Shown piece after piece: positions 18,396-50,100 of a DNA stretch of 64,000 bases. The notes under the pieces were generated by a model that was given only the letters and a program-made list of their open reading frames with translations, did not search any database and was not told the origin of the DNA. The DNA is taken from NCBI RefSeq assembly GCF_019059575.1, contig NW_024882309.1, forward strand, positions 1-64,000, written 5' to 3'. The first letter of the stretch is position 1; every line of letters starts with the position of its first letter. Both the position numbers and the translations under genes were made by a program. This DNA comes from Amphibalanus amphitrite. Its lineage: Eukaryota > Arthropoda > Thecostraca > Balanomorpha > Balanidae.

Positions 18396-21044
18396 ATGGC
18401 AGGGGATGGAGCTCAAGCAAATATAATGGTGAGTTCTCCCCTGTGTGGTAAGCAACAAAGCATTTTGCAATGGGTGATGTGGATGGTACCCCAGGTATAT
18501 GCTGTAGTGTGTAAGATTATTCAATATGGGCAAAATTCCGTTTCTTTGGCCTATCACTATTTGTTTCTGACTGTTGGCAGATCGGCATTATCGGCGGCTC
18601 TGGGTTCTCTGACCCTAGCGCGCTAGGAGTGGAGGACGCCAAGGACGTGGAGTATGACACGCCATTCGGGAAGCCTTCCAGTCCTCTGCTGACAGGCATG
18701 CTGTGTGGTGTACCTGTGGCCGTCCTGGCCAGGTGGGTGCTGGCACACATAAATGGATACCTATCCAATAGGCATTTGTTGATGATGGCAACATTGTGCA
18801 TAAGGCAGTTGTCACAACAATGTATGGGTGCCACTCACTGCCAGGTGGTATTGCACAGCATTCACAGTACTTTTTTGTGGTTGGTGTTTTGTCTATTTGT
18901 GGTTGAAGAGGTAGCATGATTTGCCGATCAACTACTTTTCATGCATATTACTCAGCTCTCGCTCTCCTGTGACGGTCCACTGCGCCCCCCAGACACGGCC
19001 GGCGCCACACGATCCTGCCGAGCGCCGTCAACTACCGTGCCAACGTGTACGCCCTGCGCCGGCACGGCTGCACGCACGTGCTGGTCTCCACCGCGTGCGG
19101 CTCGCTGCGAGAGGAGTACCGTCCCGGCCAGCTGGTGCTGCTCGATCAGTTTATTGATAGGTCAGTCAGACAGACAGGCTGAATTCGAGAGGAGAAACAC
19201 CTACATCGATAGATCAGATTCATCAGCGTATTCCCAGCTACACTCATCGCCCGCTGTTTTAGTGCCTACCTTCTAATCGGTGACCAAACGACCCGGTGCC
19301 CCTGCCAGGACGACCAAGCGTCCGCTGACGTTCTTTGACGGCTCGTGTGACGAGTTTGTCGGCATCTGCCACCTGCCGATGGCCGACCCGTTCTGTGGAG
19401 AGACCGGCGGCGTGCTGCGAGAGGCCGCCAAGGAGCTCGGCATCACCATGCACGATAAGGGTGAGCCGACCGCGCCGGCTCTCGTGGTCTTGGCCGTGGG
19501 ATATTTTATCTAGATGTGAATCTCCATCGGTTATAAATATGACACCAATTTACCGGGTGACTCATGAACTGCACTGTTTTCTTCTACCAGGCACCAGCCA
19601 TATACACTGATGCGTTTGGCAGAGAACCTGGTGTAATTCCTCGCCTTCGCTTTTTAGTTACCAGTGTACTGAAAGTAAATGTTTTTATTTGTGCTATTTT
19701 CAGCGAATGAAGAATGTATTGCGTCATTTTCTGATTAGCGTCTGTTTGTTCGTTTCTGCTCCCTGCACTGCCGTTCCTCCCTCCGTGTTGACCACTGACA
19801 CCCTCTCACTCTCGTCCCGTCCCGTTCCGGCAGGCACCATAGTCACTATCGAGGGCTCCCGCTTCTCCACCCGCGCCGAGAGCCACATGTTCCGCAGCTG
19901 GGGCTGTGACGTCATCAACATGACCACCGTGCCGGAGGTGAGGTGCCCAATCCAACATTCACCAAGTCGGGAACATCATATAACATTTACTCCGTTTTTT
20001 TTTTCGCCTATTCGAGCACTGCGTCTTTCAATAATATCGAACCAGATTTCTAAAAAAAAAAACAAGTGTGACTTCCCTGCTGGTTAAATCTCTCTAAACC
20101 CAAATTCTCTAGTGAACCTCCATGCATGTATCCATGGCTTTAATTGGCTGTGTTTTGCGGTCGGACGTTAATACGACCTGCGCACGTGTCCCTAACATCT
20201 CCGCCCTGCTGTCCTACAGGTAAGATTAGCCAAGGAGGCCGGTCTATGCTACGGCTACCTGATATCCCTGCCCTCCCACAGGTGACCCTGGCCAAGGAGG
20301 CGGGTCTGTGTTACGGTACCCTGACATCCCCGCCGTCCCACAGGTAACCCTGGCCAAGGAGGCGGGCCTGTGTTACGGTACCCATGCCCTGTCCCACAGG
20401 TGACCCTGGCCAAGGAGGCGGGTCTGTGTTACGGTACCCATGCCCTGTCCCACAGGTGACCCTGGCCAAGGAGGCCGGCCTGTATTACGGTACCCTAACA
20501 GTTAACACCTCCGTCCTGTCATACAGGTAACCTTGGCCAAGGAGGCGGGTCTCTGTTACGCTGCCGTGGCCATGTGTACCGACTACGACTGCTGGAGGGA
20601 GGGCGAGGCCGGGGTCGGGGTCGGAGACGTGATGGCCACCTTCAGGGCCAACGTGTCCAGCGTGGTGCGTCTCTTCAAGGAGGCCGTGACCCGCGTGGCC
20701 GCCAGGGACTGGGCGGAGACGCTGCAGAAAAATCAGGTGGGTGTGGGGAACGGAAACTTGGAGCGTGTTTACATATATCGTCATTCGTCATTGAGTCGAT
20801 GTTATCTTGTGTTCGGCTGTTGGCTTTGATGCTCTGTTGCACCATTTCGATGTTACGGTAGCTAGTCATAATAACCTCGATATAATTGTATCGATGTAAT
20901 TATGAGTATGACCGGTGACCAGTGACCATCCGTAGCTGAGCTGAAAGTGTGCGGCGATTGCGGTCTTTATGAAGACTGCCCACTGACCGTCCGTTGTCCA
21001 TTCCGCAGGAGACGGTCACTTCCAACGTGATGCTGCCCAGCTGA
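18396..21044 (+). CDS. MTAP: S-methyl-5'-thioadenosine phosphorylase, seven exons, complete
   Basis: Exons: 18396-18428, 18581-18732, 18993-19160, 19309-19460, 19834-19937, 20527-20736, 21009-21044. Phases agree throughout and give 284 codons plus TGA; human MTAP has 283. The enzyme phosphorolyses methylthioadenosine to adenine and methylthioribose-1-phosphate in methionine and polyamine salvage (cytosolic trimer in known animals). Visible family blocks: IGIIGGSGF (phosphate loop, Ser18 where human has Thr18), [49 protein letters not shown] and CTDYDCW with the purine-site aspartates. The ATG gives [11 protein letters not shown], which aligns with the start of known MTAPs. Oddity: the exon 6 acceptor is preceded by five tandem decoy copies. 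AATAAA follows at 21654. Identity is certain; splice choice at exon 6 is inferred from frame. Confidence 0.96.
20220..20526 (+). repeat. Tandem copies of the MTAP exon 6 splice acceptor
   Basis: Five imperfect copies of the acceptor plus the first 33 exon bases start at 20220, 20282, 20344, 20400 and 20456. The sixth (20527) is the one that joins the real exon. Each begins CAG|GT and encodes the same VTLAKEAGL(C/Y)Y stretch ([11 protein letters not shown] in copy 1). The spacings 62, 62, 56, 56 and 71 are all 2 modulo 3, so reading on from any decoy meets TGA or TAA at the next acceptor. Confidence 0.9.
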
Positions 21045-47100: not shown

Positions 47101-50100
47101 TGCACTACGCGGCCGCGCGCGCCAACTATGAGGTCAGTCGCAGTCCCACAGTCAGTCACAGTCCGACAGTCGGTCAGTCAGTCAGTCAGTCAGTCAGTCA
47201 GTCAGTCAGTCAGTCAGTCAGTCAGTCAGTCAGTCAGTCAGTCAGTCAGTCAGTCAGTCAGTCAGTCAGTCAGTCAGTCAGTCAGTCAGTCAGTCAGTCA
47301 GTCAGTCAGTCAGTCAGTCAGTCAGTCAGTCAGTCAGTCAGTCAGTCAGTCAGTCAGTCAGTCAGTCAGTCAGTCAGTCAGTCAGTCAGTCAGTCAGTCA
47401 GTCACAGTCCGGCAGTCAGAGTACGACTTAAAACGTCCGTCTGTCGGACAATAGCTAGATCGGCCTGTCCTACTGTCTGTTCTGCTGTAATATCTGTCTC
47501 TGTATGTTTGTATGTGCTTCTCTGTTGGTGACGTTAACCGACTGCCTCACCTCCAGGTGGCTGTGACGCTGGTGGTGGCCGGTGCCGACGTCTCGTGTAC
47601 AGACAGCCACGGCCGGACGCCGCTCTACTGCGCCGCGGCCGCCGACGCCGACGGAAGGTCCGTGTCCGCCGGCCGGGGTCTGGGGCTGGGTCTGTCTCAA
47701 AAGCGAAGGTGTACATAGGTCCGCCTGCTATAATCTGGATTCGGGTCCGCCTCTCGGGGTCAGTGTGGACACGGGCTCCTAGTCTGTTCAAGGTCAGGAT
47801 CTTCCCCATGGTCAGGTTCTGCCTCCTGGAATATGGGTCTGGTGACCAGGGTCTGGGACCATGTTCGCCATCCACAACCAGGGTCAGGCTTATTGATGGA
47901 TGGGTCGTCCTAGGTCAGGGTCTGGCCTTTGGGTCTGAGCCCAATGTGTCTGGGGCTATGCCCTCCATCCTTTGCCAGGGTCAGGGACTACATAATCATC
48001 CACAGCCAGGGTCAAGGTTATGGATGTGTCCTCCGGGGGCAGGCTGGAACCTAGAAGGTGTGATGGTATGTTGTGATGACATTCACGGGCCCATCCACGT
48101 CTCTGGCTCATTGTGTGAGCACCGCACGCATCGGAGGCCATTCAACACTGAGCGCGCATTGTGAATGGTAATGCCGCGCCCAGTGCTGTGTTTTCATACG
48201 AGGGGGTGGTCTTTGATGTTTAGTAGCTCTCTTTACTAAATTTGACTGTGACTCTCACACAGTCAGTGAGGTTATTTAGATGAGCAGAGAGCTGCAACTG
48301 TAACTTAAACTGGCTCTGTGACTGTGTCTGTGACCGTGTGACTGTCACAGGACGGCGCAACTGCTGCTTTGTGTTTGTGACATTGTGACTGTAACTGTGT
48401 GCCTAGGACGGTGCAGCTGCTGCTCTGTGTTTGTGACTATGTGACTGTGACTGTGACTCTGTGACTGTGTTACCTGTCACAGGACGGTGCAGCTACTACT
48501 GTATCGGCTGTGACTGTGTTTGTGACTGTGTTACCTGTCTCAGGACGGTACAGCTGCTGCTGCAGCGCGGCACCGACCCGCTCCAGCCCGACTCGGAGGG
48601 ACGCTCCCCTCTCCATCTGGCGGCCGCCGCCGGCCACCGCGCCGCGCTGGACCTTCTGCTCGACTCGCGCGGTGTGTGCTCCGTGCTGGGGCCGCCGGCC
48701 GGCGAGGAGCGCTGCCCGCCGGCGGCGCCCAGTCCCCTGCATCTGGCTGTGAGTACCGCACCTCCGTCTACACATGCATACAGACACACACCTGACGGGG
48801 ACCCATCCTACCGGGCTGGACAGCTCGTGTGGCTGTCCGCACTCTCGGGGTTTCTCCCTTGTCAAGTGTCCGCGGTGTAGCCACCGTTGCCCTCCGTCAT
48901 TATACTATCACCACTGATCGCAACCCCTCGGCGTGTCCGCAGGCGTTCCACGGCCACCAGGCCAACCTGATGAACCTCATGGCCGTGATGGATAACGTCA
49001 ACCTGCTGGAGGGACGCGGACGGACGGCGCTGCACCTGGCGGCGGCGCGCGGCAACCTGCCCTGCCTGCTGTCGCTGCTGGAACAGAAGGTAAGGACCGG
49101 GGATAGTTGCCCTGCCTGCTGTCACTGCTGGAACAAAAGGTTAGGAGGACCCGCGGCAACGTGTGCCTGCTGTCACTACTGGAACAAAAAGTAAAATCCG
49201 AGGTGCCCGATGGTGCGTAGTTTTTAATCCGCCCCTACGCCTGTTTGCTGAAAAAGAACTAAGCTCATAGCGTTCCGTGTTCGGTCTTACTGTGCTAGCT
49301 CTAAATTTGTCCTTATTGCTATCTATCTCCAAACCAAGACCACAGATCCTGAAAACAAATAATCCATGCATTGTCTGATACAGTCTAATGCAGCTCACAA
49401 TAGACACCGACGCATCTTATGGTCTCTGGTGGCCGCATGATCAGACGGAATGCATTCCTGGTCGCCTATATCAGCTCAGTCGGCACGGTCCCCGACACGG
49501 TACGTATGCTATGATAGTCTGGAACGTCAGGTATCTTACCCAGCCGGAGCTCGGTACATACAGCTTTGCTGTGGTAATCGGGAACGGTACCTTCCCGTAC
49601 CGGAGCTCGGCGAAACAGGTGCAATGCTCGACCGTCTATTGTCAGTTGGACCGTCTATTGTCTGTTGGGCCGTCCATTATCAGTTCGCCAAGTATGCGGA
49701 ACACCGATTCAGTACGACAACCGTGTGCCTCTTTGACTGGTGCGGCTCTGTCTCGGTCATCCGTGTGTCGCTGTCCGTGGTCGTATTGAGCGCTGCTGAG
49801 CGCTGACTCGTTGCGCCGGTACTGACAGATGCACTGAACAGGGTGATGTGCAGAGTGCGCCCTGTCGGCCGATTAACCGCTATAGACTAGCCGGTCATCG
49901 GATGGACAGCGTGCGTCACTGAACATTACTTAGTGACGGGGCGGTATGATATTGGTTTTTGTTTTAAACTGTCCCTTCAAGTTTGGTATTGGGTTCTTTT
50001 TGTTGGTTTACCTTGTTTTGGACATCAATTATAACATCCGTTTGTGGTTTGAAGTGGAAACAGCGGACTAAGATCTAACGACACCGACCAGCGTTTTACC

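Follow-up and report, generated by a model that had tools for sequence, protein, structure and literature searches.

Tandem arrays straddling splice junctions in MTAP, an ankyrin gene and other genes of the barnacle Amphibalanus amphitrite

A stretch of 64,000 nucleotides (nt) from the barnacle Amphibalanus amphitrite (contig NW_024882309.1, positions 1 to 64,000), called the window here, contains two genes whose introns carry tandem copies of their own splice junctions. One encodes MTAP. The other is an ankyrin gene of the ANKRD28/44/52 type (PP6 regulatory ankyrin subunit). The genes and the five junction arrays are listed in order along the forward strand; a slash marks the exon-intron border.

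18396–21044, + strand: MTAP gene, seven coding exons, spliced frame of 284 aa plus stop
18396–18428, 18581–18732, 18993–19160, 19309–19460, 19834–19937, 20527–20736, 21009–21044, + strand: MTAP coding exons
20220–20526, + strand: MTAP exon 6 acceptor array, five extra copies of cag/exon 6 start, DNA z = 20.6
38104–49089, + strand: ankyrin gene, exons 1–13, one reading frame
39949–40510, + strand: ankyrin exon 4 donor array, six extra copies of ..CGGGTCGAG/gtcagt
41703–41970, + strand: ankyrin exon 6 donor array, a G-rich minisatellite with five extra GACAG/GTGAG sites
48351–48543, + strand: ankyrin exon 12 acceptor array, three extra copies of ag/GACGGYRCARCTRCTRCT
49090–49190, + strand: ankyrin exon 13 donor array, two extra copies of CTGCTGTCRCTRCTGGAACARAAR/gt, with ends at 49139 and 49190
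62273–62380, + strand: ankyrin exon 14, added by tblastn and reading; the gene continues past the window end

The closest matches of the MTAP protein are two A. amphitrite proteins, P0002 and P0001, at 98% identity each (P0001 apart from one insertion), followed by P0003 at 88% and Pollicipes (P0004) at 73%. Comparison with 1cb0, which we take to be the human MTAP enzyme, gave E = 1.9e-104. Searches with the ankyrin protein returned no barnacle protein by name among the 120 matches listed, some of which are nameless.

In the acceptor arrays (MTAP exon 6 and ankyrin exon 12), the intron end, the AG and the exon start are repeated upstream of the true acceptor. In the donor arrays (ankyrin exons 4, 6 and 13), the exon end, the GT and the intron start are repeated downstream of the true donor. 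The MTAP copies lie at 20220, 20282, 20344, 20400 and 20456, each with ~34 nt of exon, and the spacing toward the true exon 6 at 20527 is 62, 62, 56, 56 and 71 bp. Copies of the exon 4 donor end at 40037, 40126, 40235, 40308, 40413 and 40510, and copies of the exon 12 acceptor (~19–25 nt of exon each) are found at 48351, 48407 and 48483. At least 18 nt of exon is present in two of the five extra ankyrin exon 6 copies. The original prediction placed arrays of two to six extra copies at these five junctions, and all five are there; its figure of 20–45 bp of exon per unit was too narrow, and the measured range runs from ~8 nt (most ankyrin exon 6 copies) to ~50 nt (ankyrin exon 4).

Probes of 50 nt were used to score the 39 junctions of the two genes (12 in MTAP, 27 in ankyrin). 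The five array junctions score 55–95, the next best scores 29 (the exon 10 donor, beside a CAGT microsatellite), and all others score 19 or less. A more permissive scan at DNA and peptide level, with Markov-shuffled flanks as control, gave DNA z values of 11–23 for the five arrays and 2.2 or less for the other junctions, where the top peptide z was 3.0. A scan of the whole window detected 15 local duplication clusters. Five touch MTAP or ankyrin exons, each of them lying across a splice junction. No duplication cluster was present in any of three Markov-shuffled copies of the window. These results confirm the arrays at the five junctions as real.

The CAGT microsatellite (47133–47419, ~270 bp) starts ~17 bases past the exon 10 donor gtcagt, and the donor motif itself looks like the seed of the repeat.

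Junctions elsewhere in the assembly were sampled in 30 tiles of 10 kb, placed by hand and not at random. Tiles L022–L030 were chosen as neighbors of gene-bearing tiles, some of which already had arrays. Exons were predicted by codon bias and splice signals and picked by recognizable family or gene context. On its training window, the exon finder made 18 plus-strand predictions, 15 with a correct edge, and five false predictions on the minus strand. From 35 predicted exons, 18 were used and 17 left out; three added from an earlier prediction run brought the set to 21. Their 42 ends yielded 38 scored junctions, four being dropped (site absent in a first or last exon, or uncertain). The sample is small and partly hand-chosen, with hand-curated exons. 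Pfam matches in the sample genes include RhoGAP (E = 1.2e-6), I-set (3.1e-10), RhoGEF (2.6e-16) and SH3 (5.8e-14), and a DENND5-like gene matches RUN (7.8e-5) and PLAT (5.2e-8). The MFS_1 match of an SLC22-like transporter is weak (5.1e-5, below its cut-off), a second RhoGAP exon pair (0.019) falls below the RhoGAP cut-off, and no Pfam family was found for SLC22-like exon 1, the L028 exon or two L021 exons. The names SLC22, DPR and DENND5 are presumed, and we infer that three transporter exons belong to one SLC22-like gene. Strong arrays (scores 68–100) were found at five of the 38 junctions, and one weaker array was recorded.

Tile L016: SLC22-like exon 1 donor, strong
Tile L014: SLC22-like acceptor, strong
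Tile L022: SLC22-like acceptor, strong
Tile L025: RhoGAP donor, strong
Tile L027: RhoGAP acceptor, strong
Tile L030: DENND5-like donor, weaker (score 33, shuffled maximum 22)

The strong arrays of the sample lie on two contigs, C1 and C10. Those of L014 and L016 come from the first 210 kb, and the other three from tiles picked beside gene-bearing tiles. Three junctions barely over the shuffled maximum were not counted: DPR-like acceptors A (25 vs 24) and B (22 vs 21), and the RhoGEF exon 2 donor (24 vs 20). The occurrence of strong arrays in other genes bears out the proposal that the process extends beyond chance and beyond this locus.

A G-C rich segment of L016, considered as an exon with an array, proved not to be one. 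On the minus strand of L014 (~1735–1290), the 75-bp junction units of the SLC22-like exon preserve the reading frame without a stop across four extra copies, and more copies of the unit occur 0.4–1.2 kb upstream. This array could lengthen the protein by steps of 25 aa.

Local tandem duplication is pervasive in this DNA. The 210 kb sampled contain 86 clusters, similar duplications are abundant in tiles without a recognized gene, and the genome seems unusually rich in short-period duplications. Pooling the window (5/39) and the sample (5/38), strong arrays occur at 10 of 77 junctions. The corresponding rate for non-coding 50-nt probes with a local copy, low-complexity probes excluded, is 3.7% for the sample and 2.1% for the window. 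The excess at junctions is ~4-fold, with a pooled binomial P of 6e-5 when junctions are treated as independent and P = 0.011 for the sample junctions alone; the pooled P would be 0.087 were the background 8%. Exon interiors gave no hit among 375 probes of 30 nt at a score of 36 or more. Exon-edge probes of the same length gave 7/70 at a score of 36 and 9/70 at 30, against 3.8% and 5.2% of non-coding probes. Duplications that touch exons of these genes are seen only at exon edges, which is the pattern that selection would leave, plus the ~4-fold excess. Junctions are enriched over other non-coding DNA in the sample covered here, against the equal rate that the original prediction named as a refutation. 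A mechanism specific to AG/GT boundaries finds no support: duplication occurs everywhere in non-coding DNA here, and the emptiness of exon interiors is part of what sets junctions apart.

Dense tandem repeats of 20–160 bp were also observed in C1 tiles L002, L003, L004, L009 and L015, some of them common to several tiles.

The minimum number of codon changes among the copies and their exon was counted over nine arrays, in segments of 18–51 nt whose ends were set by hand where similarity stops. Excluded from the count are L016 and L025, whose exon parts are too short or identical, the distant fifth L014 copy (one replacement change), three of the five ankyrin exon 6 copies and the irregular L022 copies missed by the search string; two codons of the second exon 13 copy were masked (indel). 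Changes are silent in 30.5 of 45 cases. Neutral simulation on the same codons predicts 12.1 silent changes with no mutation bias, 16.6 with moderate bias and 19.7 with strong transition, GC-to-AT and CpG bias, and the silent excess has p = 0.0014 or less in all three models. The window arrays contribute 21.5 silent changes of 30. The four sample arrays alone contribute 9 of 15, with p = 0.004, 0.038 and 0.12 as mutation bias rises. Silent and replacement changes per array were as follows.

MTAP exon 6: 8.5 silent, 2.5 replacement
Ankyrin exon 12: 6 silent, 1 replacement
Ankyrin exon 13: 5 silent, 0 replacement
Ankyrin exon 4: 1 silent, 5 replacement
Ankyrin exon 6: 1 silent, 0 replacement
L014: 3 silent, 0 replacement
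L022: 1 silent, 4 replacement
L027: 1 silent, 1 replacement
L030: 4 silent, 1 replacement

In MTAP and ankyrin exons 12 and 13, 19.5 of 23 changes are silent and copy-to-exon divergence is 0.31–0.59 at silent sites (pS) and 0–0.08 at replacement sites (pN). The ankyrin exon 4 changes look neutral.

The consequence of using each of 48 copies as a splice site was determined. The reading frame is shifted by 33 copies, eight are in frame and meet a stop, and seven are in frame and open (four in L014, two in L025 and one in L027, with the frames of the sample genes inferred). Neutral drift of an intronic copy would gather replacement changes at the neutral rate, and for the most part these copies have not done so. 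They could hardly have become silent-biased through coding use, since a frameshift or a stop would result from 41 of the 48. A reading of the copies as alternative exons was rejected on this count, and the original idea of the arrays as a way to generate alternative splice sites is not supported by it either. A source of diverged alleles can be gauged from the congeneric bay barnacle, Balanus improvisus (= Amphibalanus improvisus), for which a fourfold-site diversity of 20.1% and a dN/dS of 0.029 are reported (PMC8270832). Allelic diversity of this kind would be enough, in order of magnitude, to supply diverged alleles.

The MTAP unit pattern was searched in the assembly of 807,550,619 bases (2644 contigs, the window being C812:1–64000). 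It matches two places only, the window (six sites) and the reverse strand of contig C191 (nine sites), both at MTAP exon 6; a reversed control pattern had no match in the assembly. The C191 exon 6 is 96% identical to the window exon 6 over 198 bp and has eight extra copies beside it, compared with five in the window. The spacing outward from the exon is 71, 56, 56, 62 and 62 in the window and 77, 56, 62, 71, 71, 56, 62 and 62 in C191, so the two arrays share the unit classes of 56, 62 and 71 bp. The two places are probably uncollapsed haplotypes, or possibly paralogues. This comparison of copy number between places covers the MTAP array.

Protein P0001 (A. amphitrite MTAP, 306 aa) has a 22-aa insertion exactly at the exon 5/6 border that is absent from P0002, Pollicipes P0004, P0003 and P0005. 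The insertion looks like one 66-nt junction unit retained in the coding sequence, and represents a genuine isoform or else an annotation to which the array gave rise. A length of 66 nt fits no MTAP array spacing and would point to a third form of the array.

A reading with a modest balance of probability in its favor is that the arrays are junction-spanning minisatellites, akin to variable number tandem repeats (VNTRs), in a genome where short tandem duplication is very common, the edge copies being spliced out and several of them captured from diverged alleles. Duplications with units of ~30–110 bp do occur throughout non-coding DNA here. A duplication that crosses an exon edge would survive because splicing goes on using the outermost site, which belongs to the complete exon, and the extra copies leave with the intron; duplications inside exons would be removed by selection. 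The copies at MTAP, ankyrin exons 12 and 13, L014 and L030 would come from diverged functional alleles rather than having slipped off the adjoining exon, the route being unequal exchange between homologous chromosomes or a switch of template from one to the other. Such captured copies would differ from the start at many silent sites and few replacement sites. Together, the silent bias and the low coding capacity of the copies suggest that most of the divergence arose inside functional exons on other chromosomes. Ankyrin exon 4 and L022 would represent ordinary same-chromosome expansion followed by neutral evolution. Array copy number would then drift, and exon edges may contribute as the borders of homology between haplotypes.

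Several results weigh against this explanation. Of 4139 intron control probes in MTAP and ankyrin, 6.5% likewise score 50 or more; arrays and microsatellites were part of this set, and by position most of the high scorers lie in them. Measured against this unfiltered set from the two window genes, junctions are enriched only ~2-fold. The selection filter alone does not account for the residual excess, and a further cause may be needed. Exons may be the stretch most alike between haplotypes, or a conserved exon may make copies easier to recognize. The silent bias loses its significance in the sample arrays alone under the strongest mutation bias, and it is not universal, with ankyrin exon 4 silent in one change of six and L022 in one of five, including a stop. 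Mean pairwise pS in the three window arrays (0.36–0.46, from very short segments) exceeds the 0.20 published for another species. The C191 locus may represent a paralogue instead of an allele, and allelic capture is proposed from array copies in one assembly.

Same-chromosome slippage or unequal sister exchange acting everywhere, filtered by selection and with no allele capture, would explain the pervasive background, the empty exon interiors and the neutral-looking changes of exon 4 and L022. The silent bias would then reflect mutation bias and small numbers, as the p of 0.12 for the sample arrays allows. We regard this account as unlikely: the nine arrays jointly reject it in all three mutation models, and the predominance of silent changes at MTAP and exons 12 and 13 speaks against it. 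A source of mutation linked to splicing or transcription at the exon-intron border (R-loops, or stalled repair at AG/GT) appears improbable. It would account for the ~4-fold excess and for the involvement of both donors and acceptors, but similar duplications are plentiful in tiles without a recognized gene, the copied exon part varies in its reach past the junction, and easier recognition of copies of conserved exons could by itself create an excess.

Selection on the copies as alternative splice sites or mini-exons is harder still to credit. Protein-level conservation of the copies, the open frame of the L014 units and the resemblance of the P0001 insertion to a unit read through are what such function would leave, but most copies would cause a frameshift or a stop, they contain only part of an exon, and the insertion is confined to P0001 among the five MTAP proteins compared. 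An assembly artefact, in which diverged haplotypes are strung together at the exon edges where they align, would yield silent-only differences and edge breakpoints in a hyperdiverse species. This explanation was rejected and is very improbable. Sampled contigs of 1.5–3.8 Mb and a ~460-bp CT repeat in the window (92% match) suggest an assembly from long reads, which would span the arrays. The arrays beside the two MTAP exon 6 sequences agree in their unit classes and differ in copy number, the separately deposited P0001 seems to read through a unit, and nine sites in a row at C191 are more than two haplotypes could give. The artefact that the original prediction named as its refutation is thus made unlikely by the C191 copy number and by P0001, rather than by reads. 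Of its overall interpretation, an origin beyond chance and beyond one locus is supported; an AG/GT-specific mechanism and a way to generate alternative splice sites are not.

Junction-spanning duplications and VNTRs are already known as single cases (CBS and OCT1), and boundary minisatellites are known from human duplicated genes. For CBS 844ins68, splicing strongly favors the more distal, exon-attached site and gives normal mRNA, and gene conversion with allelic chromosomes was proposed, as reported (PMC2630376). As in the barnacle, the duplicated CBS segment straddles a splice junction, and a CBS VNTR unit of varying number spans coding and intronic bases, as read from its coordinate name. 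The barnacle arrays likewise have units with a splice site, exon bases and intron bases. At the level of the messenger, as judged from deposited proteins, P0002 fits use of the exon-attached site and P0001 seems to read through a unit. The CBS account concerns two sites in one human gene, whereas the barnacle arrays occupy 10 of the 77 junctions sampled, across several unrelated genes, and have diverged mainly at silent sites.

An 8-bp duplication at a human OCT1 splice junction, described as a common polymorphism, caused mis-splicing of 38–52% of minigene transcripts, with the mis-spliced transcript at 0.3–0.6% in liver (PMC8137991). It resembles the barnacle case as a splice-junction duplication and differs in having one extra 8-bp copy rather than an array. 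Tolerance of junction duplications is thus not automatic, because the OCT1 minigenes in that account mis-splice at such a rate. In human segmental-duplication genes, variable minisatellites at exon-intron boundaries, built of ~30-bp units, are reported to alter gene structure (PMC2812944); exons or introns themselves change there, whereas barnacle host-gene structure appears to be kept. Intron gain by tandem duplication carrying splice signals has been described for potato RdRp, with multi-copy exonic arrays cited for fission yeasts (PMC4974935). This AGGT model shares with the barnacle the tandem duplication of splice signals and differs in that every array of the window is located at a single end of an intron already present. 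A new intron between two copies was not found, the opposite splice sites of the five window introns having no nearby self-copy (scores 14–19) and none standing out in the permissive scan.

Introner elements were rejected, the MTAP unit pattern occurring at its two MTAP exon 6 places only in 807 Mb; in the other arrays, the comparison of units was by reading only. Nor do the arrays contain complete in-frame exon copies with both splice sites, as mutually exclusive duplicated exons would: a copy consists of one junction and ~8–50 nt of exon, and 7 of 48 are in frame and open. A study of repeat-rich avian introns (PMC6792250) has no bearing on junction copies. No report of genome-wide junction arrays, or of barnacle ones, appears among the literature matches listed (title and abstract start, with most subscription journals outside coverage). 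Two things look new here: how often the arrays occur in unrelated genes, and that their divergence is mainly silent.

We advance a wider proposition only tentatively. In hyperdiverse genomes, homology between parental chromosomes may end at the exon edge, so that exchange and template switching repeatedly misfire there. On this view, heterozygosity would produce the arrays as a side effect all over the genome. They would be small stores of former exon alleles kept in introns, and a lasting source of ready-made splice sites from which exons could be extended and introns gained. If the sampled rate of 10/77 holds, barnacle annotation and splicing face competing splice sites at many genes, and P0001 is a deposited protein that is probably affected by an array. 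A single species makes it possible to test what guides the spliceosome's choice between tandem sites that are nearly identical, and whether diversity between parental chromosomes drives small duplications and thereby intron and exon evolution.

Other features of the window were noted by eye. A long reverse-transcriptase-like open stretch (14440–17720) and a related fragment (35770–37000) are each followed by a short direct repeat of the CAGGTAAGA type; by their sequence they look like non-LTR (lacking long terminal repeats) retroelements adjoining the genes. Several copies of the palindrome GCTCAA(A/T)nTTGAGC occur at 10734–10830 and 13985–14330, on both sides of a GC-rich coding-like stretch (~12740–13230) that may be a broken gene. 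Positions 1–4500 and 25000–27600 contain long similar segments, inverted relative to each other and with an internal duplication that the cluster scan placed at 2192–2498 and 25401–25666, and probably represent a single mobile element family.

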